From a virus: a DNA stretch of 23,794 nt. Positions 1-23,794 of this stretch are shown in pieces. The translations under genes were made by a program, and so were the position numbers. The notes beneath the pieces were generated by a model, which searched no databases, had not been told where the DNA came from, and saw only the letters and a list, made by a program, of their open reading frames with translations. Position 1 is the first letter of the stretch. Each line of letters opens with the position of its first letter. The stretch covers positions 1 to 23,794 of IMG/VR virus record IMGVR_UViG_3300010883_000476. The stretch is one strand, 5' to 3'.

Positions 1-668
1 TCGTTATCAAAGTTGTACTTTGTAATGTCTGGCAGTTTAGCGTATTGTTCATGTTTGTATTCCATTTCTACTTCTTGCATTTTTGGTGTAAGAGTTTTAA
101 TGCTTTTCTTAAACAACGATGGCATGTCTGGTAGTATCAGTGACAAGTCATCAATGTCTACGCAGATACCACCTAGTGTGCATCGTAGGTGTATGTCACA
201 GCTGTCTTTGTCGTTGAGGTTACCGATGGTAAAGTGGAAGCCTTCACGGTTTGTTTCGTCGGCTTCGTCGGTCCCTGACTGAAATGCAGATGTACTACAA
301 TGATGATGAACAGTACCAAACAAGGTGTCAGGATAGGCGGCACGTTGTTTTGAAAACTCTGGATTTGTGGGATCGGACTTAACAGACATTCCACTAGTTG
401 TTTGAGGCGGAACCCAATAAGACCAAGGACTTTCAGCATTGTTTTCATCATAGTATAGGAATAGTAGTGTTTCTGACTTTAGTTTATCGTAACTAATTTT
501 CATAAACGCAAGAATGTCATTCCACATTTCTAGCGGTATTTTTTTACCATACCACTTTGGTTCAAGTGCTGGAACTTCTGGGACTTCTTGTAGTCGGTAC
601 GTAGTGAACAGCGGGTGATTAACGCGTTCAAATACTTCATTATCGTATACAACATATTTATTAGACAT
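1..668 (-). CDS. JAB/JAMM metallopeptidase, PRTRC protein A-like (C-terminus cut by window edge)
   Basis: An open frame of 222 residues starts with ATG at 668 and runs off the left edge without a stop. It contains an intact JAMM zinc-protease signature: His121-x-His123, seven residues, Ser131, two residues, Asp134, followed by an acidic ADE stretch and a Gly-Phe-His-Phe strand. Glu66 is a plausible upstream catalytic glutamate. JAB/JAMM enzymes remove ubiquitin-like modifiers or trim their precursors. The His-x-His...SGTDEADE arrangement is the form found in PRTRC system protein A and related prokaryotic JAB proteins. The start codon overlaps the E1 gene's stop by 8 bases (ATGTCTAA), indicating translational coupling. 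In context it is the deconjugating or processing enzyme of the Ubl-E2-E1 cassette. The catalytic motif is read directly; substrate and family assignment are inferred. Confidence 0.85.
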   Translation of the reverse strand, partial: MSNKYVVYDNEVFERVNHPLFTTYRLQEVPEVPALEPKWYGKKIPLEMWNDILAFMKISYDKLKSETLLFLYYDENNAESPWSYWVPPQTTSGMSVKSDPTNPEFSKQRAAYPDTLFGTVHHHCSTSAFQSGTDEADETNREGFHFTIGNLNDKDSCDIHLRCTLGGICVDIDDLSLILPDMPSLFKKSIKTLTPKMQEVEMEYKHEQYAKLPDITKYNFDN

Positions 669-1377
669 TGTGAGTTGGTGTTTGGATGTTAACTAAATCA
701 GCAAGAGTAATTGTCTCTATACGTGAAAAGGTTGTTTGATATTCTACAGGCATGTAGTTTTCAATAGTGTCAGTTCCTGAGAACCACAGCCATAGAAGAA
801 GGTTGCCAAGGGAGGCACTTGTTTGGTTTGCTATTGCTAGTTGTGGCGTTGCTTCCAGCGCCTCACCTTGACAACGGATTGGGGAACCTTCGTTTGAGGT
901 TTGTAGCTCAGGATACCTGAGAAGTGGGTTCATCATTGGATATTGCTCTGTTAGTCGAGGATCAAAGTAATACGCTTGACTGGTTGAGTATTCATTGGCG
1001 CAGATTAGAATTGGTTTATCTAATTCAATTGCTACTTCCAATAGATGACGACGTGCTGGGTGGTTGTCTGCACAACAGATAAGTACGTCAGCTTCGTGAA
1101 AGAAGAATTTGTACTCTGTGTCAAGCATGTCTTTGTCAAAGTAGCCGCGTACGATCTGTCCTTCGTTTTTGCGAAAGTTGTACGTACGCATCAGTGCTTC
1201 GGCTTTGTTCATGCCAACGTGGTTGTTGCGAAAGAGTTGACGGTCGAGGTTACGTTTCTCAAGGACGTCGCCGTCGATGAGTGTAAGCTGTAAGTCAAAA
1301 CTGTTTTTAAGTGCTGGTAGCATGTAACTGGTTACGCCGCCTGCACCTACGATTAGGGCTTTTAGTTTTGGTTTCAT
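661..1377 (-). CDS. E1/ThiF-like adenylating enzyme (PRTRC ThiF-like)
   Basis: This 238-aa protein has the Rossmann-type nucleotide-binding fold of the ThiF/MoeB/E1 superfamily. Visible landmarks are the glycine loop VGAGGV (10-15), the acidic strand end LIDGDVLEKRNLDRQ (33-47) with Asp35, Asp37, Asn43 and Arg46, Lys58 in the NKAEAL segment, and the CCADNHPARR segment (101-110) with Asp104. Cys126 and Cys169 are candidate catalytic cysteines. No CxxC zinc pair is obvious. Members adenylate the C-terminus of a ubiquitin-like protein with ATP, often followed by thioester transfer. The length suits a compact ThiF or PRTRC ThiF protein. Its ATG overlaps the stop of the upstream 109-aa gene (ATGA), and its own stop overlaps the JAB start, so the three genes are translationally coupled. 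Activation of the 75-aa Ubl is inferred from context. Confidence 0.9.
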   Translation of the reverse strand: MKPKLKALIVGAGGVTSYMLPALKNSFDLQLTLIDGDVLEKRNLDRQLFRNNHVGMNKAEALMRTYNFRKNEGQIVRGYFDKDMLDTEYKFFFHEADVLICCADNHPARRHLLEVAIELDKPILICANEYSTSQAYYFDPRLTEQYPMMNPLLRYPELQTSNEGSPIRCQGEALEATPQLAIANQTSASLGNLLLWLWFSGTDTIENYMPVEYQTTFSRIETITLADLVNIQTPTHNV

Positions 1378-1703
1378 AGTGATGATCGAGTTAGGTTTCT
1401 GTGTAACTTAGATAGAGAAAGCTTTGGCTTTGCTTCATCTGCTACCTCTTTGTAATGTTTGATGTAACGGAGGATTGCGCCACGTTTGCGACCACAATCT
1501 TCGTAGTCTTTTCTAAGTATCTTAAATAAAACACGAAGATCTTGTTCGCATAGACCGTGCTCAATTGTGTGCAAGTCTCTAATCTGTAGATCGCGTTGTT
1601 CAATCTCTTGAGTATTGTAGCTGTGCGCACCAAGCTGCCACCGACGATCGTAACGTTGATGCAACGAATCTATTTGGGTTACTGCTTCTGTGATAGTAGC
1701 CAT
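1374..1703 (-). CDS. Unknown 109-aa helical protein inside the Ubl/E2/E1/JAB cassette
   Basis: I do not recognise this protein. It is charged and predicted to be mostly helical. It is rich in Arg, Lys, Glu and Gln, has two cysteines (51 and 69), no membrane segment, and a basic C-terminal tail (residues 93-109). Its start overlaps the end of the E2 gene by 25 bases and its stop overlaps the E1 start as ATGA, so it is very likely real and co-translated with both enzymes. That position suggests a partner in the conjugation pathway, such as an adaptor, an E2-E1 bridging factor or a target selector, but nothing in the sequence proves this. It does not have the length of PRTRC protein F, nor any RING-type Cys/His pattern. 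Confidence 0.75.
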   Translation of the reverse strand: MATITEAVTQIDSLHQRYDRRWQLGAHSYNTQEIEQRDLQIRDLHTIEHGLCEQDLRVLFKILRKDYEDCGRKRGAILRYIKHYKEVADEAKPKLSLSKLHRNLTRSSL

Positions 1704-2599
1704 TGTGCAAATTGGTTAATGTATTCTTGTGACATGGGTCTGTGAAACGCGTTGTAGTTGTTTCCTGAACCTTCGATTGCTTCGTGCATGTAATCTTGTT
1801 CCTGCTTGTTTTGTATGAAGTAACTACCAGTTTGTTCGTCTTTCTTGTACACAAGGTACATTTCTTCGGCAGCTTCCATACGTAAGTCGTTGTTTATCTG
1901 CGTTGTGTGTATGTTAAACATCAGCTCTTGGACAATTGATTCCATGTTAGCAGATGTTAAAGAATACATAGTAACAGTTCTTGGAACAAACTCACTGTTA
2001 CCTGTGCAGATTTGACCTGTGTCATAAATGTTGGGTAAAGCAAAGGTAGTAGCTGCGCCTGTCTCATTGTTAATACCAAACAAATACGCTTTAATTGAAT
2101 GACTGAAGGGTCCAATTGTTTGTCTTGTTGTATTGATTGGTATGTTTTTTAACATAATATACATTCTGTGTGTTGCGGACTTGAACGTTATTAAGTTGTT
2201 TGGTCTAACAGCAGCCTCAGAAGTCTTTGTGCCGTCTGATCTGCGTGTACGTATTTGGTAAGCTTCTGTGCCAGCGTACTGTGTTAGATGATCTGACTTG
2301 ATTAAGTCGGTTTTTGGTAGTGGGAAACCAGCAGGTAAGTGTACAAAAGCATTTACTGTATTGTATGGCTCTCTGTTTTGATAACCATAAAACACATTGT
2401 AAGGTATGCTACTGTAGTCTGCATCAAGTACAGGTACTTCTAGTTCGCTGTAGCTTGGTACTGGGTTGATTACTAGCTGTGGCTCGACAATGCAGTCAAG
2501 GATTGCATTCTCTGCACACTGTATAACAGATTCTCTAGTCTCACGTTTTCTAAAGAAACCGTCTTCGCCTAGGATTATTTCGGATTTGTATTGTGACAT
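1679..2599 (-). CDS. E2-like ubiquitin-conjugating fold protein (PRTRC protein B-like)
   Basis: This 306-aa protein is read from the ATG at 2599. A longer frame from 2623 is possible but would place eight extra residues inside a strong inverted repeat, so the internal start is preferred. The key feature is ALPNIYDTGQICTGN (187-201), which resembles the E2-like signature 'PN-hydrophobic-x-x-G-x-[IV]-C' of PRTRC protein B and the prokaryotic E2 families. Cys198 is the candidate thioester cysteine. The N-terminal half (about 35-180) looks like mixed beta strands, and the C-terminal 80 residues look helical. In E2 proteins the cysteine accepts the activated modifier from E1 and passes it to a target. 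Lying between Ubl and E1, it fits the carrier role. The family call rests on one motif plus context, so it is strong but not certain. Confidence 0.75.
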   Translation of the reverse strand: MSQYKSEIILGEDGFFRKRETRESVIQCAENAILDCIVEPQLVINPVPSYSELEVPVLDADYSSIPYNVFYGYQNREPYNTVNAFVHLPAGFPLPKTDLIKSDHLTQYAGTEAYQIRTRRSDGTKTSEAAVRPNNLITFKSATHRMYIMLKNIPINTTRQTIGPFSHSIKAYLFGINNETGAATTFALPNIYDTGQICTGNSEFVPRTVTMYSLTSANMESIVQELMFNIHTTQINNDLRMEAAEEMYLVYKKDEQTGSYFIQNKQEQDYMHEAIEGSGNNYNAFHRPMSQEYINQFAQWLLSQKQ

Positions 2600-2611
2600 A
2601 GTAAATAGTAA

Positions 2612-2640
2612 GCCTCTGCCCACAGTAAATAGGCAGAGGC
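2612..2640 (-). other. Inverted repeat between Ubl and E2 genes (possible processing or attenuation hairpin)
   Basis: A perfect 9-bp G/C-rich stem (2612-2620 with 2632-2640) surrounds an 11-base loop in the short gap between the Ubl stop (2647) and the E2 start (2599). On the minus strand it is followed by a mixed A/T sequence and not a run of T, so it is a weak terminator at best. It could allow more Ubl than enzyme to be made, by partial termination or by protecting the 3' end of a processed Ubl message. Confidence 0.6.
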
Positions 2641-2646
2641 AGTGGG

Positions 2647-2874
2647 TTATGCTTTGCTTGATGCCTGACGCTCAAGTGTGATGGACGTGTAGTCATCAAC
2701 TAACGCGTCGTGCGATAGTGTAACTCCATTGCTGACTGCTACGCAGCCCTCTGGTGCAGAGAGTGCACCAAGGATAGAACGATCATTGAGAATACTACCT
2801 ATGGTAGCTTCAATGTCGAACGAACGGCTGACTGAATTAGACATGCCGTAACGGATTGTAGTTGTATTTGACAT
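2647..2874 (-). CDS. Ubiquitin-like beta-grasp protein, PRTRC protein C-like
   Basis: This 75-aa protein opens the five-gene conjugation cluster. The order of elements suits a beta-grasp fold: strand TTTIRYG (4-10), strand VSRSF (15-19), helix IEATIGSILND (21-31), then GCVAVSNGVTLSHDALVDDYTSITLER (43-69). The last part has the 'V-x-x-NG-x...D-x-x-L-x-D-x-x-x-I-x-L' pattern common to small ubiquitin-like and ThiS-like modifiers and to PRTRC protein C. It ends in a short tail, RQASSKA, with no terminal Gly-Gly. The modifier may therefore be conjugated through another residue, be trimmed by the JAB protein first, or act non-covalently. Context (E2, E1 and JAB immediately downstream) carries much of the assignment. 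A candidate promoter lies directly upstream and no Shine-Dalgarno sequence is present. Confidence 0.7.
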   Translation of the reverse strand: MSNTTTIRYGMSNSVSRSFDIEATIGSILNDRSILGALSAPEGCVAVSNGVTLSHDALVDDYTSITLERQASSKA

Positions 2875-3006: not shown

Positions 3007-3041
3007 GTAGCCACCCCGCTGTGTGCAGGGTGGCTACTTTT
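3007..3041 (+). terminator. Plus-strand intrinsic terminator-like hairpin in the gap between two leftward genes
   Basis: A perfect 10-bp stem (GTAGCCACCC 3007-3016 with GGGTGGCTAC 3028-3037) and an 11-base loop are followed on the plus strand by TTTTATG. On the minus strand the hairpin is followed by AATATG, so it suits a rightward transcript better. No rightward gene lies upstream of it in this 237-base gap (2875-3111). It may stop antisense transcription into the leftward genes or end a small plus-strand RNA. A TTGACA sits at 2939-2944, but no convincing -10 box follows it. Confidence 0.5.
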
Positions 3042-3487: not shown

Positions 3488-3532
3488 AAAAAAAGCCACT
3501 CAGCCAGACTCGTGAAAGCCTGACTGAGCAGC
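3488..3532 (-). terminator. Strong leftward intrinsic terminator
   Basis: On the minus strand a 13-bp stem (3532-3520 with 3507-3495, including three G-T wobble pairs) and a 12-base loop are followed directly by seven Ts (3494-3488). It starts ten bases after the stop of the 283-aa gene. The wobbles make the hairpin better on the minus strand than on the plus strand. It ends the first leftward transcript, so the membrane protein and the Ubl cassette need readthrough or promoters of their own. Confidence 0.85.
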
Positions 3533-4437: not shown

Positions 4438-4728
4438 TTACGCGGCTAGGAAGAAGTCAGCAGGAGCTGGGACAATCGTGTAGTAGTGATTGCCTGTCTT
4501 CGGGTTAACGTTCTCTTGTGTGCGAACGATAACCTCGACGATGTCGCCCTCTTTACCGAACACTGAGTTAGTGTTAGAGAAGTAGACATGCTCTTGCTTG
4601 TCTTGAGTCATGAACTTGGTAAGACCTAGTGGTTTCTCTGGAGCAGAGCTGTTAGGTAAGTCCTTGACGGCTTCGATGATGAGCACCTTGCAGATGCTAG
4701 TGACGTTGGGTTGGTCTAGTTGGATCAT
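4438..4728 (-). CDS. Hypothetical 96-aa protein, possibly a small beta-barrel
   Basis: This protein is not recognised with confidence. It looks like an all-beta domain: strand residues 12-20, then HVYFSN (47-52), GDIVEVIVRTQENVNPKTGNHYYTIVPA (61-88) and a short hydrophobic tail. Alternating strands with an 'NPKTGNHYY' hairpin are seen in small OB-fold proteins, so a nucleic-acid-binding role is possible but is only an impression. It lies 11 bases downstream of the 63-aa gene and about 45 bases upstream of the AT-hook gene, in the same direction, so they are probably one operon. No Shine-Dalgarno motif precedes the start. Confidence 0.7.
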   Translation of the reverse strand: MIQLDQPNVTSICKVLIIEAVKDLPNSSAPEKPLGLTKFMTQDKQEHVYFSNTNSVFGKEGDIVEVIVRTQENVNPKTGNHYYTIVPAPADFFLAA

Positions 4729-13205: not shown

Positions 13206-13829
13206 ATGCCAATTACGCCTACAAAGCTAAACATAATGAATGCTGCACTACGAAAGGTAGGCAGTTATTTTTTGGATGCGACCGACACGACAAGTACTAC
13301 TTACCTGATTGCTAATCAGGCATACATTGATGCAATATTAGAAGTATTTGCTGATCACAGGTTTCATTATAACACAAAAAAAGTTACGCTAACAGCGACT
13401 AACGCAGTCGCACTCACTGATAGACCACATCAATACCAATTTCAGTTACCATCAGATTTTAATACGCTGCACGACTTAGAGCACCCAACACAGTTCTACA
13501 AGATTGCCGATTACGCAATAGAGCAGGATCAGGTGTACTTGGATGAGCCAAGCATCAATCTTTACTACACATTTATACCAGACTTAGAACTGTCTGCCGT
13601 AGCGTTACCACCTTTTTTAAATCGTATTATTGTTCTGCATATAGCTCAAGCGTTAAGCATTGAGTTGTCTGGCTCTGAAAGTCGTCACGAAATACTGTTT
13701 CAGCAGTATGTTGTTGCACTTCGTCGTGCGCGTGTGCTATCTGCTAGACAGGGAGCACCACAATCGCCAATCGACGACTCAACATCTAAAATATTAGGTA
13801 CGCAACGGACATATGGCACGATACAGTAA
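13206..13829 (+). CDS. Tail tubular protein A (T7 gp11-like)
   Basis: This 207-aa protein has the family's typical opening, TKLNIMNAALRKVGSY (6-21), followed by a helix AYIDAILEVFADHRFHYNTKKVTL and a beta region with HQYQFQLPSDFNTLHDLEHP. The C-terminal helix has LNRIIVLHIAQALSIELSGSESRHEILFQQYVVALRRAR, the 'A-x-x-L-A-x-x-L...E-x-x-x-x-x-L-L' pattern common to gp11-like adaptors. It forms the ring that joins the portal to the tail nozzle. The length is close to T7 gp11 (196 aa). The last 17 bases overlap the nozzle protein gene. Confidence 0.88.
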   Translation: MPITPTKLNIMNAALRKVGSYFLDATDTTSTTYLIANQAYIDAILEVFADHRFHYNTKKVTLTATNAVALTDRPHQYQFQLPSDFNTLHDLEHPTQFYKIADYAIEQDQVYLDEPSINLYYTFIPDLELSAVALPPFLNRIIVLHIAQALSIELSGSESRHEILFQQYVVALRRARVLSARQGAPQSPIDDSTSKILGTQRTYGTIQ

Positions 13830-16800
13830 TGTTACAACTAATTTTTCTGGTGGATTAATCACTGATAATTTAGCGGGAAGAAAAGATATTGACCGCGTTA
13901 CTAACTCGTGTCGTAAACTTACAAATTTTTTCCCATCCCTGCAGGGTCCAACAGGCTATCGCCAAGGGTTTCAGTTATCATATGTAGATGCAACTGAAAC
14001 TAACACACAGTTTAGACAGGTTCATTTAACAGTCGGCAAGGATGATTCGTATAGACTTGTATTTACAGATAAAAAACTCCGTGTGTTTGATATTAGTGGC
14101 ACACTCATTTATCAGTGGGTTACAGCGTACACAGGAACTCAGCTAAATGACTTACGGTTCAGCTCTGAGACAAGTGTTATTTACATCTGCCATCCAAACC
14201 ACAGACCACGAAAGTTTGAGATTAAAGATGATATTTCTTATTTCTTTGAAATAGACACATACATTGAACCCTTTTTGCAAGAAGAAGAGACGTTAACACG
14301 TCTTGACATTGTTGGGGGGGAAGAAGTAGCAAAAGTAGAGAGTACAGCTGCTGCTGGCGCAACTCCTGATTTTCAGGGTATATACGACGACTATAGCCCG
14401 CTTTCGATTAAGAATATTAGTGCTGCAGATACAAGCAGAGTAGCAGGCACGTATGCTGCCGTTGCTAGCACGTCCTCTGGGTCGGGAACAGGTGCAACTT
14501 TTAAGGTTGTTGTTAATACCCTTACTATTAAGAATACTGCGGCTGCACATCCAGACAGAACAGGGGGATTATATACTAACGTTGCTAGCACGTCATCTGG
14601 CTTAGGAACAGGCGCAACTTTTCTGGCTGTTGTGGCTAATGATGGTACTGCTATAGTTACTGTTACTACTATTGGTAGTGGTTACGCTGTAGATGATACA
14701 ATTACTATTGCGGATTCTGCATTGGGTAGTGGCGGCGCTCCTAATTTAACTTTTCAGGTAGCGACTGTGTATGATGGTTCTGCTATAGTTACTACTGTTG
14801 CTAATGGTAGCGGTTACGCTGTAGGTGATACAATTACTATTGCTAATTCTTTGCTAGGTAATGGTACTGGTGCTGCTAATTTAACTTTTAATGTAAAGTC
14901 CTTACCTAATTCTTTTTCAAAAGATTACTATGTTGAGTATCAGATAAGTGATGTTTGGTTATTAGGAAAGGTTATTGACTCAGCAACAAACTATCAAGAA
15001 GTAGTTGGTCCAACACCATCAGTTGTTTATGTAGATCAAGTTGATTTTGTAACGGACATTAACGACACGTCAGCTAAGATGTACGTGATCGACAATGATG
15101 TAACAACCTCTGGTTCGGATCAGGAGGACATACTAAAAAGAGACGCAGTTCCAATTGGTGAGATACACTTGCGCACAGACACTGATCTTTTTGAATCATC
15201 ACAGCTCAATTCATGGATTCGTGTTAGCGAACAAAGTTCATCAAGCGATGTATTGGTTGATAGTAGCAGTTCAATGACTCGCTGGGTAAAAGTTGAGAAG
15301 TATTTAGGTAATGAGGTGCACCCAGTCAAATTTGTTAGGGGTGCGGGTGTATTATCAACTCATTTAGGCTACTATGATTACGGATCTGTATATAAGTCTT
15401 ATGGGAGTGCTCAATTTGATGTCCACACTGGCTCTTTAGCCGCCGCAAGTACTCTGTCAGCTGAGATAAAAACAGCGGGTCAACGGACATTTGTTTGGGC
15501 TGGTGGAGTTTTTACAGGCAGTGGGAACGATACTGTTGCAGGCAACGTATCTGCAACTGATGTAATTGGTAATTTATCAGAATCATTAGAGTTTGATGTC
15601 CATAAAATAGATACAAGTGTACCTGCAATTCATTCAGGCACTCTTGGGACTACCGCCTCAAATCTTATTCAACCAACAGGTTCAATTAATGTAACTGAGA
15701 TTGCTAATGATGTTACGATAACAGCTACTGCTGATATTTTTACAGCAGCAACATGTATTAATCGCCACCTACGAGGTGTAATGCCAACAGGTGTTGTGCA
15801 CATGCAAATCATAGCAAGAACGTCGGACAAAGAGGTTCGTGCTAGGTTAAAAAACCCAGTACCGAGAAGTGATGTTACAGGGGGCTTTGTAAATTCAGGT
15901 AGGTTTGAAACATTTAGTTTTGGCGCGTGGTATGATAACAACTATCCAGCAGATGTAGTGTCTTTTGAACGTCGCCGAATATACGGAGGCACACCAGCTA
16001 ATCCAAACTATGTGTTTTTTAGTAAGTTAGATGATGAGAGTACCTTTGCGCCGTCAGAAGATGATAAGACTGTTTTGGATACAAATGGTATATCATACCC
16101 GTTGTCGAATGTAAATTCATCTGTTCGTTGGATGATTGCAGCAAAGGATCTAATTATAGGAACTACTAGAGGTATATTCTCTATGTCAGTAAATGAGTAC
16201 GAAGCAGCGGTTAGTCCAAAGACTATTCGTTTTGAGCTTGCTGATGAAGTTAACTGTAAAGATGAAGCCTACATGGTAGGTACATCTATATTCTTTCCAA
16301 ATGAGTCAGGTACTCAGTTATTAGAGTATAGATACGACGGTACGATACAGAGAAGTAACGCAAACGATGTTTCAAAATTTATATTTCCAATACTAACAAC
16401 AGACACAATTAAAAGAATTGCAGTACAGGAAACGCCTCAACCAAGAATTTGGGTTTTAACTACTTCAGGTGTTCTTTACTGCTTAACATATCAGCGACAA
16501 GAAGATTACTATGCGTGGTCAAAGATAGTTGTGGCAGGTCAGACCCCTGTGTTAGATTTAGTTGTTCTGCGTGAGACATACAAGTCGGGCTTAGATCAAG
16601 TGTACATTGTGGTCAATAGGTTTGGATTTGTTCAGCATGAAGTTTTATCCTCTTCTTCCGATATTAACGGAACACCAACAATTCCTTTTTCAAGACCTGA
16701 AGACGAGCCAAAGCTTTTTCTAGATAGTGCTGAAACAGGGGTTGTGGGTAAGAATACACAGGAGTATAATCAGGTAACTAAAACATTAACAATAACACCA

Positions 16801-17385
16801 GTAAACACGGATGTATTTAGTAGTAACCGCAGATTTGATCTGGTTGTGTCTGGGACTTATATGGGCAACTATGAGATTGTTGGTGGTAAAATACAGATAC
16901 AAATGTTACTAGAAGAGTCTGCACGTTGGACACTTGGCTTAAGTTATAAGGGGGAGGTGCAACCAATGTATCCTACATGGGATGGCTCAAACAAGCCATC
17001 GTACGGTTCAGACAACCAGCGTGTTATATCATCAAGGGCTTATTTGATTGATTCGTCACGTTACAGTGTTGGGATTGAAGATGACTTAGAGATAGTTGAG
17101 CTAGATGGTCATGTACCAACATCAGCTAGAATTATTTCTGATATAACACAGTATATATCGGACTTAAATGACTCAACAGGTGCTGAGCTAACAACCTCTG
17201 ATAATTTTACACTAGGTATGTTTCTTAACTATGAGGCTAAACCTCAAGGTAATTTCACAGGCTTTGATAGGGAAAAACCGCTTAGAGGTTCTTATTTTGG
17301 GGTTGAAAAATCTATAACTATAGAACAGGGTGAACCGTATCCTCTTACTATCGCGGCACTTGTAACAAAAACAGATTTAAACTAA
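13813..17385 (+). CDS. Tail tubular protein B (T7 gp12-like nozzle) with an inserted repeat region
   Basis: This 1190-aa protein, longer than T7 gp12 (794 aa), starts with NVTTNFSGGLITDNLAGRKDIDRVTNSCRKLTNFFPSLQGP, the family's usual opening ('...GG-x-x...R-D-x-x-x-x...C-x-x-x-N-h-x-P-x-x-x-G'). The segment RRIYGGTPANPNYVFFSKLDDESTF (about 719-743) and the region to about 850 (TRGIFSMSV, FFPNESGTQL) are also typical of gp12-like nozzles, which form a hexameric tube that opens for DNA ejection. Residues about 197-362 are an insertion made of two pairs of repeats (40 and 44 aa) of Gly/Thr/Ser-rich beta type with GSGYAVGDTITI. The gene overlaps the upstream gene by 17 bases and ends one base before the next start. 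Confidence 0.9.
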   Translation: MARYSNVTTNFSGGLITDNLAGRKDIDRVTNSCRKLTNFFPSLQGPTGYRQGFQLSYVDATETNTQFRQVHLTVGKDDSYRLVFTDKKLRVFDISGTLIYQWVTAYTGTQLNDLRFSSETSVIYICHPNHRPRKFEIKDDISYFFEIDTYIEPFLQEEETLTRLDIVGGEEVAKVESTAAAGATPDFQGIYDDYSPLSIKNISAADTSRVAGTYAAVASTSSGSGTGATFKVVVNTLTIKNTAAAHPDRTGGLYTNVASTSSGLGTGATFLAVVANDGTAIVTVTTIGSGYAVDDTITIADSALGSGGAPNLTFQVATVYDGSAIVTTVANGSGYAVGDTITIANSLLGNGTGAANLTFNVKSLPNSFSKDYYVEYQISDVWLLGKVIDSATNYQEVVGPTPSVVYVDQVDFVTDINDTSAKMYVIDNDVTTSGSDQEDILKRDAVPIGEIHLRTDTDLFESSQLNSWIRVSEQSSSSDVLVDSSSSMTRWVKVEKYLGNEVHPVKFVRGAGVLSTHLGYYDYGSVYKSYGSAQFDVHTGSLAAASTLSAEIKTAGQRTFVWAGGVFTGSGNDTVAGNVSATDVIGNLSESLEFDVHKIDTSVPAIHSGTLGTTASNLIQPTGSINVTEIANDVTITATADIFTAATCINRHLRGVMPTGVVHMQIIARTSDKEVRARLKNPVPRSDVTGGFVNSGRFETFSFGAWYDNNYPADVVSFERRRIYGGTPANPNYVFFSKLDDESTFAPSEDDKTVLDTNGISYPLSNVNSSVRWMIAAKDLIIGTTRGIFSMSVNEYEAAVSPKTIRFELADEVNCKDEAYMVGTSIFFPNESGTQLLEYRYDGTIQRSNANDVSKFIFPILTTDTIKRIAVQETPQPRIWVLTTSGVLYCLTYQRQEDYYAWSKIVVAGQTPVLDLVVLRETYKSGLDQVYIVVNRFGFVQHEVLSSSSDINGTPTIPFSRPEDEPKLFLDSAETGVVGKNTQEYNQVTKTLTITPVNTDVFSSNRRFDLVVSGTYMGNYEIVGGKIQIQMLLEESARWTLGLSYKGEVQPMYPTWDGSNKPSYGSDNQRVISSRAYLIDSSRYSVGIEDDLEIVELDGHVPTSARIISDITQYISDLNDSTGAELTTSDNFTLGMFLNYEAKPQGNFTGFDREKPLRGSYFGVEKSITIEQGEPYPLTIAALVTKTDLN
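14401..14640 (+). repeat. Tandem repeat, two 120-base units, inside the nozzle gene
   Basis: Units 14401-14520 and 14521-14640 align without gaps. Both carry GTTGCTAGCACGTC, GGAACAGG and GCAACTTTT at the same offsets and encode about 40 residues each, of the form 'IKN...VASTSSGxGTGATF...V'. The divergence sits largely at scattered codons in the first half of the unit. This is a recent in-frame duplication or part of a modular insert. Confidence 0.85.
14641..14898 (+). repeat. Tandem repeat, two units of about 132 bases, inside the nozzle gene
   Basis: Units begin at 14641 and 14773 and share GGTTACGCTGTAG and GATACAATTACTATTG at the same offsets. Each encodes about 44 residues containing GSGYAVxDTITIA and ending in NLTF-x-V, a motif common in beta-rich virion decoration and tail proteins. 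Codons here favour T endings (GGT, GCT, ACT, GTT) more than the surrounding gene, which hints at separate origin. Confidence 0.8.
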
Positions 17386-18036: not shown

Positions 18037-20775
18037 ATGGCAATTAAAGTAAAAACAGGCTTAGTAGAACAACAAAAAGCAGAAGCATCTGTTTTTGGGT
18101 ATCAGCAGACGTACACATCACCGTTAAGTGCTGTTTCTAGCGCCCTTAAGGATGTTGGACAGGCAGCAGGGTCAATAGGCGGTGGAATGGCTCGAGAGCG
18201 AATAAGAGGGCAGCAAGCGCAAGTTCAGGCAGAAGCAAAGCGCAAACGTGATACAGACGCAGCAGCGCGCAAACAGGCGGCTGTTGATAAAGCTGTAGCA
18301 AACACTGCATCCAGTACGTACGGTATGGGACTAGCCACTAGTATTGCAGCGGTTGAAGATGCGTACGCGCTTGAAAACGATGAAGCAATCGCTGCAGCAG
18401 AGCAAAATTTATCTACTTATAACCCATCCTCTGCAAACTTTACACTAGATAATTATACTAAAACCAAAGTATCAGACTCTACTTATTATGCAATGAATGG
18501 TCACAATGACGGAGTTGCTGAAAAGTATAATGCAGCAAGTCTTAAGCTTCGTTCTTTAAAACCACACTACCAGTTAGGTAATATTTTGAAGACAACGCGT
18601 AGTGACGCAAGTAACACGTTACACACAACACTTCAGAACCACCTTAATCAAACAATGAAACCAGAGGCGTTTGACGGTGCGCTAATGTCTATTGTGTCGT
18701 TAGGTAACCACGAAGGGTTGGATGCTTTATCATCTCCAGACGCAGTGACTGCGTTTAAGGGTGACGCAAGTGGTATGGTTGCTCAGCTTTTTGTACACAA
18801 CATTGAAAACTCTAGGAGCGTTGAAGATGTTAAGTATTACGCATCAAAGGGTGTTGAACAATATGGTGAGCTTCTTGAGTTTGTTAATGAAACTGACCGA
18901 GAGTTACTTTTTGATGCCGCTGAAAAAAGAGTTGAATCGCTACAAAAGGACGGTAATGCAGAACAGCGTGCTAACTATAAAGCGCAAGTAGATCAAACAG
19001 CAACTACATTCTTGAATACACTATCTCAGCAGACAGATATTGAAGGAATGGTTTCAGTCGCGTCGAATACAGCCGAAGCTTTACTGGGTGTTGAGGAAAA
19101 GTTTATTGAAGGCTCAGACTTAGAGAAGTTAAACTCGGTAAAAACATTAGTTAATTTTTTCGCACCAACACGGATCCAAAATAAAACTGGCGAAGATGTG
19201 GTAACCAGCCCCTTCAGACAGGGGTTAATAACTGCGTTAACTGTTGCAAAAACAGAGGGCGTGATGCCTATCTATTTGTTAGACGAAGAAATGCTTGCTA
19301 ATGTAAGACCAGACGATGCAGGTAAGCTACGACAGTACGTAGGTACGATGGCGTCAAAGATACACAAAGGGTTGCAGAACGGAGATACTCGTAATTTAGA
19401 GTTGTTAACACCAGATGTTACAGAGCAGGCAAAGTTGTTAAAAGACTTAGGTTATAACGACATACCATTGTTTAAGGGAACTAATATGCCATATGGTGAA
19501 GGACATATGCAGTCAATTTTAAGCATTAACACTCCAGCTGCAGTGGCTCATCGCGGTGAAAACATGATTAAAGACCCAAGCTCAACAGCAGTTGAGAGGG
19601 CACAAGGCTTAAATTATCAGTTTGCTGCTCTGGCTTCAAGCCCCGAAGAAGCTGAAAAAATCACAAAAGCAATGTTAGCTTTAACAGAGTCGTCTAGTAG
19701 GTTTGATAAGACTCAGCACACGCCAATTGTTCAGATGTTTCTTAACGGTGCTGCTGGTGAAGCGAGTACAACATCTGTGATGACAAGCAGCGAAGCATAC
19801 AACAACTATAAAGTAGCTTTGCAAACTGGTGATGCAGAGACAGCTGATGCGTATTTAGAGTTATTTCAAGGCTTGGTTGTTAGTGTAGCAGACGCCCACG
19901 CCGATGATTTAATGGGTATTAAAAAATCTGGGGTTTTATCAGCAGAAGGCTTTCTGAATATAATGGCAGGTGAGTCTCGAGTAATGAACTCGAAGATAAT
20001 GAAAACATTCTTTGATAAAGAGCGTGAGTTATTAACAGAGCGAGTAGGCATAACTAGAATAGCAGATAACGACACTAAAGTTACACTGCTGCCGTCAATG
20101 ATTGGTGCAGTTGATTTAGAGTTTCGTAAGCCAATGAACGTTTTATTAGAATCATTTCTTAGCGCGAACGTTCCATTTACAGACTTCCCCTTGCTTCTTG
20201 GTTTTGGACCCGACCAAGCAGAATCTTTTAGCCGCACAACTTATGCAAATCGACAAGCTATAGGGGCTATGCTTAAAGATGGTAATTATTCTGTATTACC
20301 AGATACAGCAACCAACCGTACAGCTGAGATTTACGCGATAGAAATAGCGCAAAACGGTAACTTAGATTTTACACCAGAGATGGTAAAAAACATTGAAAAG
20401 TTTCCAGCTGGTTTTAGAGACATGGTTGAAGAGTTTGAGTTAACAACCACAAACTCAAAAGAGGAGCTTGCAGAAATTTTACAAGAAGGTAATGTTTATG
20501 TTGGCGGTGCTACTTACCCATTACTAGACTATAGCGCTAAATCGTTTATTAATAACGAGATTGGGATTGCTGTAAGATACTACGACCGATTAACGGGACG
20601 TTATGAAAACTTAGTTGATTTAAACAATAACCAAGTTGTGATTACAAACTCAGCAGCAGCTAATAGACTCCAAGCAGAGGGCGGTTGGGTTCCAAATACA
20701 CTTGCAGAAAGTTTTGTTAAGACAGTCAGAGATACAACACCAATTATTAGCGCCCCCACAGTTAAAACCTTTTAA
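18037..20775 (+). CDS. Internal virion protein (T7 gp15-like)
   Basis: This 912-aa protein is in the gp15 position, between the gp14-like gene and a larger gp16-like gene. It is largely helical. The N-terminus (1-85) is Ala/Gln/Arg-rich with GQAAGSIGGGMARERIRGQQAQVQ, typical of these ejection proteins. There is no transmembrane segment and no lysozyme-like motif that I can see. T7 gp15 (747 aa) forms the periplasmic tube for DNA entry. The present protein is longer. Family assignment comes from order, size and the N-terminal pattern, since these proteins diverge quickly. The final A of its TAA stop is also the first base of the next ATG (TAATG). Confidence 0.75.
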   Translation: MAIKVKTGLVEQQKAEASVFGYQQTYTSPLSAVSSALKDVGQAAGSIGGGMARERIRGQQAQVQAEAKRKRDTDAAARKQAAVDKAVANTASSTYGMGLATSIAAVEDAYALENDEAIAAAEQNLSTYNPSSANFTLDNYTKTKVSDSTYYAMNGHNDGVAEKYNAASLKLRSLKPHYQLGNILKTTRSDASNTLHTTLQNHLNQTMKPEAFDGALMSIVSLGNHEGLDALSSPDAVTAFKGDASGMVAQLFVHNIENSRSVEDVKYYASKGVEQYGELLEFVNETDRELLFDAAEKRVESLQKDGNAEQRANYKAQVDQTATTFLNTLSQQTDIEGMVSVASNTAEALLGVEEKFIEGSDLEKLNSVKTLVNFFAPTRIQNKTGEDVVTSPFRQGLITALTVAKTEGVMPIYLLDEEMLANVRPDDAGKLRQYVGTMASKIHKGLQNGDTRNLELLTPDVTEQAKLLKDLGYNDIPLFKGTNMPYGEGHMQSILSINTPAAVAHRGENMIKDPSSTAVERAQGLNYQFAALASSPEEAEKITKAMLALTESSSRFDKTQHTPIVQMFLNGAAGEASTTSVMTSSEAYNNYKVALQTGDAETADAYLELFQGLVVSVADAHADDLMGIKKSGVLSAEGFLNIMAGESRVMNSKIMKTFFDKERELLTERVGITRIADNDTKVTLLPSMIGAVDLEFRKPMNVLLESFLSANVPFTDFPLLLGFGPDQAESFSRTTYANRQAIGAMLKDGNYSVLPDTATNRTAEIYAIEIAQNGNLDFTPEMVKNIEKFPAGFRDMVEEFELTTTNSKEELAEILQEGNVYVGGATYPLLDYSAKSFINNEIGIAVRYYDRLTGRYENLVDLNNNQVVITNSAAANRLQAEGGWVPNTLAESFVKTVRDTTPIISAPTVKTF

Positions 20776-23700
20776 TGTTTTCATCTTCAAGTAGTCATAC
20801 TCCGTCTGTGCCCACCAACATGGGTGATCGTGTTAGTTTAACAGGTCGAAAAGAGTCTTTTGATGCCTCATTAAAAGAGGGCTTTAACACTGCAACTGCG
20901 TACGTCTCTAACCCAGTTATGGAATGGTATGCAGGGACACAGGACAAAAAGAACGGGCTGGGTCCTGTTACCGAGGAAGATGTTGAGGAGTATCGTAGTT
21001 TTGGGTTACCTAATTTAAATTACATTAAAGGTGAAACTCCAACTCAATTGCACTTGCGATCAGAGGCACAGCTTGCTCAACAGATACGGCATCAGTCAAT
21101 AAATCAAAAGTATCCAATTACAAATACAATAGGGCAATTGGCTCCTCAAGTATTGGACCCTGCAAATGTTGTACCGTTTGGTAGGGTAGCGACTGCAGGC
21201 AGGAATGTTTCAAAGGTAAACAAACTTAACACAGCCATACTACAGGGAAACAAGTATTCTGCTGCAATGCACTCAGTAAAGGATTACACAGTTGAGGCTC
21301 TTGTAGCCAACACAGCAGTATCACCTTTTCATTATTTTAACATGAACTATCAGGGCGTAGACTATGACGCCTCAGATGTTGCTCTTGACATCTTTATGGG
21401 TACAGGGGTTGGAGCTGGATTCTTTGCCCCTATTGGAGCCTACAAAAACTTTAGACGTGCTGGCAGTAACCTAAACAAAAGGCAGATGTTTGAGGACATG
21501 AACCAGTTTTTCCAGACGGGGGATTACACTAAAGCTGCTAATGTTTTATATGAAGGCAGCCCTGATTTTCGTAAGAAGATTAAGAGAACAGGTGAGTTTA
21601 CAGAATTAATAAATACATCAATACAGTCGGATGGGGTTATTGATTTTACAAATTTAGAGACAGGTCAAATAAAAACTCTTCGCGGTGTTGTAGATTACTT
21701 TCAAGCAGAAGGGCTACAAGCATCGTTAACAAATGCTTTATCAAAACAGTTAGTTGCAGAACTAGAAGCTGATCCAGATGTAAGTATTAATGAGTTTGCA
21801 TATAATCAGCGCACACGTTTTGCAGATATACTTGTAGCCGTACAAGACCGCGATATTAGCAGACTAAGCGAAGTAGATCAAGGGATTGCAAGGTCGGTTA
21901 TTGATGATTCGGCTGGTGTAAATCTTGATGAAGATGGCGGTATGCTACCTACAGGTAGGAAACCAAAAGTACGTTTTGACACAGATAACTTAGGGTCGTT
22001 AGCCGAAGCACATAAACGTGCAGGTAACATCTTAAGAATGATAAAAGAAAATAAAGCAACTGGTGTGCAAGATCTTGTTGATCGAGGTATTATAAATGAA
22101 CAGCAAAAAACAGCTGCTTTAACAGCTTTTAACAAAGCATACGAGAAAGCTTACGCTAGAGAGATTGGCGTAGCAAACACTGTAATTAACAACATTTTCG
22201 GGCGTCAGTTTAATTACGACAGATTGCCAAAAGGAAAACGTGGCGTTAAAGCAACTGGCGGCACTCTTGGCGGTCAGGCATTTGCGGAGGCAGACAAGAT
22301 ATTAGTAAACAGAGCTGAGGTTATTCTAGGGATGGGTAAATCCCCATTTGCACTAATGTTGCATGAAGCCACGCATGTTTTAAGAGTTCAATCACCTGAG
22401 ATGTATGCAGAGCTACAGGCAGCAATTGGCAAGCACCCAGACTTTGAAGCTGAGATACGAAAATACAAGGGGCATTACAGCAAAAATTTAGTAGATGCTG
22501 AGATACCATCTGTTACGCTTGAGTGGGCTATAACTCAACCAGCGTTTTGGGTTGAATTAAATAAAGCAAATAAACCGTTGTTTAAACAGTTTTCAGAAGC
22601 AATTGTTGAAATGCTAAAGCGGGCTAAAGAGTTGTTTAGTAAGTCAAAGCTTAACACAGAGTTTTTAAACGACGTAGATAAGCTATTGGTAGACATGACA
22701 CCAGCTGAGTTTGCTACACAACTAGGAGCAATTATTAACAGTGGGCGTGGAAAGAACTTACCTTTTGATCAGATACTTACCGCAACGCAGAGTGTTAATA
22801 ACAACATTAGAAACCTTGTATACTCGGAGTCTATTGATGTTAAGCCAAAGACTGAGGTTGATCGTGTATTAGAGGATCACAAACCAGAGTCAACGGTGAC
22901 TGGACAGAACGCTAAGTTGCGAGAGCAGCGCAGACAGACGTTTAACCGCTTGGCAGCCACAACATTGCCAAATGTACGTGGAGAGAATGTACAGCGGTTT
23001 GTTGAAACATTAACTAACTACATTGATGAGTTAGCCGAAGAGGTTGATCCAGACGCACAAGAGTTTATTAGCTTTGACGAATACAAGGCTCGTATCCGTG
23101 AGTTTACAAGCGAGATTATTGACGAGAATTTAACACGGGAGGATATACTATCTAGCGCAGACTACACTGAGTTATATGATAACCTACGCCTGTACTCAAT
23201 GAATCTTGTTAATGACAAGTCGTTGCTTCGTAACAATGATCTGTATCGTAGAGTAATCCGTGGCACAAAACACTTAGACCAAGCATCAGCTCAATACCGA
23301 TCAGCTAAAAACAGCATTGTTAAAGAGTATTACGAAAACAAAGCTCAAGCAGTTGTTGGTAATTCAATGAAGCGGGCAGCAATTGAGTCAAGGCTACGAA
23401 ACTTTAAAACAGACGCACAGCGACTTTCGTATTTGCGTACACTACTAGACGGTCAGGAGCGCAAGAATATGCCCCGTATTGCAGGGCTTGAGAACGAGAT
23501 GACAGCAAACTCTCAAAATGCTGCAGTGCCTATTTTAGATGTGTTATATAAACATGGGCTAGACGAGCTGTTTATGCCTGACAATAGTTTTGGTGTTTTT
23601 CGTGCTGACCGTAAAGACCCAAAATGGCACATGTTTGGAAAGAATCGTAACAGCAGGTCAAAAGCTTTTCACGATGAGCTACATAAAGCGTTGTTAGCAC

Positions 23701-23794
23701 GTAAGCTTCCAGAAGCTTGGGGAGAAGTACCCGCACTAAAAGAGATGTTTGACGTTCTGATGGCAACAGAAGTTCGGTTGCTAGACGAGTTAAA
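20775..23794 (+). CDS. Large internal virion / ejection protein (gp16-like) with HExxH metalloprotease motif, 3' end cut by window
   Basis: This open frame of 1006 residues starts in the TAATG overlap with the previous gene and runs off the right edge. It is mainly helical. Near residues 520-590 it has FALMLHEATHVLRVQSPEMY, containing His530-Glu531-Ala-Thr-His534, a classical HExxH zinc-peptidase site, with Glu576 or Glu583 as possible third ligand. A hydrophobic glycine-rich segment lies at about 210-223 (FMGTGVGAGFFAPIGAY). No lysozyme or transglycosylase motif is visible at the N-terminus, where T7 gp16 has one. Position as third internal protein supports a gp16-like inner-membrane ejection role. 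The protease-like module might cleave wall peptides or host proteins on entry. The function of the domain is inferred. Confidence 0.8.
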   Translation, partial: MFSSSSSHTPSVPTNMGDRVSLTGRKESFDASLKEGFNTATAYVSNPVMEWYAGTQDKKNGLGPVTEEDVEEYRSFGLPNLNYIKGETPTQLHLRSEAQLAQQIRHQSINQKYPITNTIGQLAPQVLDPANVVPFGRVATAGRNVSKVNKLNTAILQGNKYSAAMHSVKDYTVEALVANTAVSPFHYFNMNYQGVDYDASDVALDIFMGTGVGAGFFAPIGAYKNFRRAGSNLNKRQMFEDMNQFFQTGDYTKAANVLYEGSPDFRKKIKRTGEFTELINTSIQSDGVIDFTNLETGQIKTLRGVVDYFQAEGLQASLTNALSKQLVAELEADPDVSINEFAYNQRTRFADILVAVQDRDISRLSEVDQGIARSVIDDSAGVNLDEDGGMLPTGRKPKVRFDTDNLGSLAEAHKRAGNILRMIKENKATGVQDLVDRGIINEQQKTAALTAFNKAYEKAYAREIGVANTVINNIFGRQFNYDRLPKGKRGVKATGGTLGGQAFAEADKILVNRAEVILGMGKSPFALMLHEATHVLRVQSPEMYAELQAAIGKHPDFEAEIRKYKGHYSKNLVDAEIPSVTLEWAITQPAFWVELNKANKPLFKQFSEAIVEMLKRAKELFSKSKLNTEFLNDVDKLLVDMTPAEFATQLGAIINSGRGKNLPFDQILTATQSVNNNIRNLVYSESIDVKPKTEVDRVLEDHKPESTVTGQNAKLREQRRQTFNRLAATTLPNVRGENVQRFVETLTNYIDELAEEVDPDAQEFISFDEYKARIREFTSEIIDENLTREDILSSADYTELYDNLRLYSMNLVNDKSLLRNNDLYRRVIRGTKHLDQASAQYRSAKNSIVKEYYENKAQAVVGNSMKRAAIESRLRNFKTDAQRLSYLRTLLDGQERKNMPRIAGLENEMTANSQNAAVPILDVLYKHGLDELFMPDNSFGVFRADRKDPKWHMFGKNRNSRSKAFHDELHKALLARKLPEAWGEVPALKEMFDVLMATEVRLLDEL

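Follow-up and report, generated by a model that had tools for sequence, protein, structure and literature searches.

Does a bacterial virus encode its own ubiquitin-like conjugation pathway and, if so, on which proteins does it act? The question is raised by IMG/VR record IMGVR_UViG_3300010883_000476, a linear 23.8 kb viral contig that covers part of the genome of an uncultured virus and is analyzed here over its full 23,794 nucleotides (the window). The plus strand specifies podovirus-type virion proteins (terminase, head-tail adaptor, capsid and tail proteins). The minus strand, read from position 4728 to 3, holds small early-type genes and a cassette for a ubiquitin-like modifier (Ubl), an E2-like carrier, a small protein denoted X, an E1-like activating enzyme and a JAMM/JAB isopeptidase (Table 1). 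The bacterial Ubl-conjugation systems of known role, Bil and Cap2 of the cyclic oligonucleotide-based antiphage signaling system (CBASS), defend against phages; here complete cascades are found within phages. The sequences suggest that viruses chemically tag proteins during infection, and we marginally favor a working, phage-owned and reversible pathway that would most likely modify host proteins early in infection. If active, it would mean that phages wield ubiquitin-like tagging as an infection tool.

Organization and distribution of the cassette

The genes for the E2-like protein and X overlap by 25 nt, those for X and E1 by 4 nt and those for E1 and JAB by 8 nt, and the Ubl and E2 genes are spaced by 47 nt. 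All five are kept in identical order in independent contigs, and each has a ratio of nonsynonymous to synonymous substitution rates (dN/dS) at or below about 0.2; they are thus constrained genes and not chance open reading frames. The initial annotation, made from the window's sequence, had assigned to this podovirus a modifier, an activating enzyme that uses ATP, a JAMM enzyme and a carrier protein bearing a candidate cysteine, and the Ubl fold, the E1 and JAB families and the E2 motif described below agree with it.

A search with the JAB alignment returns 76 viral loci, and the carriers are uncultured, mostly marine bacterial viruses. The order Ubl-E2-X-E1-JAB, which the initial annotation had proposed to look for in other phage genomes, is found by profile searches in about 38 contigs (group I). 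Another 16 contigs of 21-97 kb, mostly longer than 42 kb, carry Ubl-E2-E1-JAB (group II); in these, E2 and E1 are separated by a small gene that looks unrelated, and E1 and JAB by further genes. No link to X could be made for the group II proteins that occupy its slot. In many contigs the cassette shares its molecule with a terminase or DNA polymerase gene, and on some also with a portal gene. It lies away from the virion genes, as first described, and relatives place it near the replication genes VRR-NUC, PolA and AEP primase. Misassembly, or bacterial or plasmid DNA within a phage contig, is refuted, since many independent contigs show this gene order together with terminase, portal or PolA, and we give it practically no weight.

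Presence was also scored in a polymerase-anchored scan that is independent of the cassette, in which a clade contig is informative if it extends 5.5 kb or more upstream of the polymerase. All five genes occur in 18/18 such clade contigs and in 0/11 outgroup contigs, so the cassette is a fixed core module of the lineage. A related terminase and PolA are encoded by podovirus ct3Et533 (MW202510), in which the 24.5 kb examined contain no cassette match. Among genome contigs, the JAB scan gives no match and the E1 scan gives two loci, one on a Sneathiella-binned phage contig and one on a contig of a Cloacimonadota bin with genes that appear phage-like. The former (L094), filed as a Sneathiella metagenome-assembled genome, is a phage contig of the clade, with terminase, portal, PolA and cassette together; its binning is a weak hint at the host at most.

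Two cultured phages appear to carry cassette-like sets. Bacteroides phage DAC15 (L172, 2480-6657) has a JAB gene with the JAMM motif HSHHTMGAFFSGTD adjoining a ThiF gene, and the protein encoded upstream seems to have a β-grasp-like start and a KSGA tail followed by a long extension. Flavobacterium phage FpV4 (L174, 2607-6618) likewise seems to encode a comparable Ubl-like/JAB/ThiF set, with KSGG and then a long extension. The activity of such sets is therefore testable at once. No description of phage-borne cassettes of this kind was found in the literature searched, the coverage of which was partial, and their novelty is provisional.

Activating enzyme and isopeptidase

Judged by sequence, membership of the 238-aa protein in the ThiF/E1 family is certain. 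It matches Pfam ThiF at 2e-20, and the catalytic subunits of the SUMO, NEDD8 and ubiquitin E1 enzymes are among the best matches of its PDB profile search. The protein contains the GAGG nucleotide loop, D35, R46, K58 and D104, together with a candidate catalytic residue, Cys169. Across 14 relatives, neither Cys169 nor the nucleotide-binding residues vary, and a cysteine is found at the matching position in the group II, L075 and L095 sequences inspected. Alignment to PRTRC ThiF by hhalign yields 2.2e-20, and the score against the PRTRC_ThiF profile is 39.5 bits, below the cut-off of 144.75.

The JAMM/JAB family assignment is equally certain from the motif. The reading frame comprises 222 codons and runs off the contig end; full-length proteins have 375-408 aa in most relatives. 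The segment HHHCSTSAFQSGTD is an exact instance of HxHx7Sx2D (H121, H123, S131, D134), and these residues and E66 are invariant in the aligned relatives. The PRTRC_A profile matches the protein at 1.4e-4 (21.5 bits, below the cut-off of 101.8) and matches 20/21 JAB members, the best at 1.5e-8.

The ubiquitin-like modifier and its tail

The AlphaFold2 model of the Ubl has a predicted local distance difference test score (pLDDT) of 87.8, and nearly all of the PDB matches listed by Foldseek are ubiquitin or ubiquitin-like proteins, with Caldiarchaeum ubiquitin and NEDD8 at the top (E about 7e-4). The predicted ubiquitin-like fold of the 75-aa protein is well supported. The profile of PRTRC protein C does not match it.

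The C-terminus reads QASSKA, in which K74 is the sole lysine of the Ubl. The same tail ends every group I Ubl except that of L072 (QASCKA). Group II tails are typically ANxKA, and several carry a short extension after K-A. In all aligned Ubls of both groups, Ala follows the conserved Lys. Tandem Ubls are encoded in L078 (4833-5321) and L095 (3785-4240), with K-A or K-G closing each unit (K-G in L095); the arrangement recalls polyubiquitin. Because K-A tails precede extensions or second Ubls in relatives, we infer that Ala75 is the conjugation end and that JAB matures the precursors, the extensions implying precursor processing. The sole lysine is the penultimate residue in 29/33 group I Ubls, and a single lysine in this position would not favor Ubl chains. 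We note that one lysine or fewer occurs in 9% of 75-aa windows from the virion proteins, so the scarcity of lysine in the Ubl is weak evidence.

The E2-like protein and X

The 306-aa protein is probably an E2-like carrier, as indicated by the motif LPNIYDTGQICTGN, which holds the candidate Cys198. This cysteine is invariant across 39 sequences with identities down to about 12%, as are N190, G200, D238 and L239, and G195 is invariant in the group I alignment. The consensus, LPN[IV][YF]xxGxxCxG, is akin to the active site of eukaryotic E2 enzymes, HPNIxxxGxICL. At the Cys motif, hhalign pairs the protein with PRTRC B at 2.7e-7, and the PRTRC_B profile (TIGR03737) matches 3/39 relatives, the best at 0.0014. 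X combines an invariant GRKRGAILRYI stretch with a fast-evolving N-terminus. Family scans and the PDB profile search return no relative of X, nor does it match PRTRC E or F. PDB sequence searches with the E2, JAB and X profiles give matches at chance level only.

The cassette proteins evolve at different rates. Between distant group I lineages, E1, Ubl and JAB retain roughly 50-75% identity (about 60-70% for E1 between the most distant), X retains 33-42% and E2 25-30% in most distant-lineage pairs; PolA is about 70-76% identical over the same lineages. E2 and X are the fastest-evolving proteins of the cassette and change far faster than PolA and terminase.

Relation to known conjugation systems

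In composition the cassette is closest to type 6d (Iyer et al. 2006, PMC1779556), in which a Ubl, an E2-like protein, a JAB, a ThiF-type E1 and an extra protein are also grouped, yet it fails several defining features. Ubl, E1, E2-like protein and JAB are encoded together in both, the viral E2 being recognized by motif and profile, and both E2 proteins lack the HPN histidine. The type 6d Ubl has a conserved C-terminal Gly, whereas the viral one ends in Ala. The absolutely conserved His downstream of the type 6d E2 cysteine is replaced in the viral protein by N-x-D-L at a comparable distance. The extra protein of type 6d is largely α-helical, and in the viral cassette its slot is filled by the small protein X. 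Finally, the viral cassette, unlike type 6d, is a phage core module.

The initial annotation equated the genes with PRTRC proteins C, B, ThiF and A. Homology to the plasmid set (A, B, C, ThiF, ParB, E, F) holds for E1 and JAB and probably for E2, which correspond to ThiF, A and B, and the viral K-A tail parallels the tails of PRTRC C, which are mostly KG or RG and in some cases extended. Identity with PRTRC does not hold. E1 and JAB fall far short of the PRTRC cut-offs, the order Ubl-E2-X-E1-JAB differs from ParB-E-C-F-B-A-ThiF, X is unrelated to E and F by profile, the Ubl has a C-terminal Ala, and the window neighbors give no ParB match in family scans. In the E1 tree, groups I and II, L075 and L095 form a single clade (99/97) and plasmid PRTRC ThiF forms a separate one (99/97); the tree has no fixed root, and long branches make the positions of DAC15 and FpV4 uncertain. 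By these comparisons, the cassette is a viral variant homologous to PRTRC and type 6d and not a PRTRC member.

BilABCD is a similar cascade of Ubl, E2, JAB and E1, and the Bil JAB matures the Bil Ubl (PMC11354881). BilA contains two Ubl domains and ends in Gly, whereas the viral Ubl is a single 75-aa domain ending in Ala; BilD has two adenylation domains and a Cys domain, compared with a viral E1 of 238 aa; and BilB carries a CEHH motif in place of C-x-G and N-x-D-L. In type II CBASS, Cap2 and Cap3 conjugate a C-terminal Ala or Gly to lysine and reverse the linkage by a JAB, and cyclases ending in Ala, like the viral Ubl, are conjugated in this way (PMC10097602, PMC11153139). There, however, a nucleotide cyclase serves as the modifier, and one fused protein combines E2 with E1, whereas the viral cassette has separate genes. 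The lambda tail proteins gpI and gpK are also a phage Ubl and JAB pair, but they lack E1 and E2 and have a role in tail assembly.

Proposed pathway and its targets

Given the parts list, the conservation of active sites and the tail, a reversible conjugation pathway is the best chemical reading, and we hold the following chemistry to be quite probable. E1 would adenylate the Ubl at its C-terminal residue, Ala75, and bind it through a thioester on Cys169. Transfer of the Ubl to Cys198 on the E2-like carrier would follow, perhaps aided by X, and E2/X would attach a single Ubl to lysines of target proteins. JAB would remove it and, in relatives with an extension or second domain after K-A, would mature the precursor. 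The fast-evolving E2 and X may select the targets, which would most likely be host proteins altered early in infection.

The rapid change of E2 and X favors targets in the host that vary from one host to another, and we put the case for host proteins as the main target only just short of even. Somewhat more tentative is the fuller proposal that the lineage uses its own alanine-ended, lysine-poor tag obligatorily in the lytic cycle, with the rapidly evolving E2 and X choosing the host proteins to be tagged. Several points weigh against the pathway as proposed. The AlphaFold model of the E2-like protein (pLDDT 75.5, 14 sequences) finds no E2 in the PDB or among the BFVD viral folds with Foldseek; of the two folds initially expected, only that of the Ubl, with its ubiquitin and NEDD8 matches, is thus recovered, and the E2 assignment stays based on motif and profile. 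The match to PRTRC B is limited to 23 columns, and the protein has neither the HPN histidine nor the downstream His of type 6d. The argument for host targets comes entirely from relative evolutionary rates.

The same chemistry could instead be directed at early or replication proteins of the phage itself (e.g. PolA, primase, or the 283-aa or 96-aa neighbors) and regulate replication or assembly. In the clade, the cassette is indeed bordered by conserved neighbors on one side and by the block of VRR-NUC, PolA and primase on the other, and in group II it adjoins a gene that reads as RecT-like. The far faster evolution of E2 and X than of PolA and terminase would be odd if they recognized conserved phage proteins, and we consider this explanation unlikely. 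A counter-defense role, in which the cassette competes with or reverses host Ubl conjugation such as Bil or CBASS Cap2, has in its favor that such defenses exist and that JAB could strip host tags. Such a role does not call for a complete forward pathway that brings its own modifier, however, and fixation throughout the clade, unlike the pattern of typical accessory counter-defense genes, argues against a purely optional gene of this kind; we rate it quite improbable. Still less credible is a sulfur-carrier pathway of the ThiS/MoaD type. Although E1 resembles ThiF/MoeB and Pfam ThiS matches 2/27 Ubls, the Ubl terminates with Ala in place of Gly-Gly, the cassette includes JAB and E2-like genes, and no rhodanese or sulfur gene is found among the neighbors scanned.

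RNA hairpins and neighboring genes

The hairpin between Ubl and E2 is stronger than -10 kcal/mol in 36/53 distinct gaps of groups I and II and is absent in several subclades (e.g. L009, L016-L020, L030, L032, L037). It probably causes more modifier than enzyme to be made. The stem-loop upstream of Ubl has a minimum energy of -19 to -28 kcal/mol in 8/8 loci checked, with compensatory changes at 6/12 consensus pairs.

Table 1. Cassette genes, RNA elements and conserved neighbors in the window
Feature	Position	Strand	Basis
JAMM/JAB isopeptidase, N-terminal 222 aa	3..668	-	PRTRC_A profile and JAMM motif
ThiF/E1-like activating enzyme, 238 aa	661..1377	-	Pfam ThiF, PDB profile, invariant residues, hhalign
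X, 109 aa	1374..1703	-	Invariant motif
Probable E2-like carrier, 306 aa	1679..2599	-	Active-site motif, local hhalign to PRTRC B
Terminator-like hairpin in Ubl/E2 spacer, putative attenuator	2612..2640	-	Hairpin energies
Ubiquitin-like modifier (Ubl), 75 aa	2647..2874	-	AlphaFold2 model, Foldseek, alignment
Conserved stem-loop 5' of Ubl	3007..3037	-	Folding energy, compensatory changes
Conserved flanking protein, 107 aa	3112..3435	-	Just upstream of Ubl in clade contigs extending that far
Conserved flanking protein matching no known family, 283 aa	3542..4393	-	Independent contigs
Conserved flanking protein, 96 aa	4438..4728	-	Independent contigs

A canonical intrinsic terminator with a 17-pair stem and a T-run lies 3' of the 283-aa gene (3495-3532, minus strand). 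On the plus strand, the tail protein at 13813-17385 contains an internal near-repeat (ASTSSGxGTGATF...) within its N-terminal half, and the open-ended 1006-codon protein of the virion region (20775-23792) includes HEATH, a zinc-protease-like HExxH motif.

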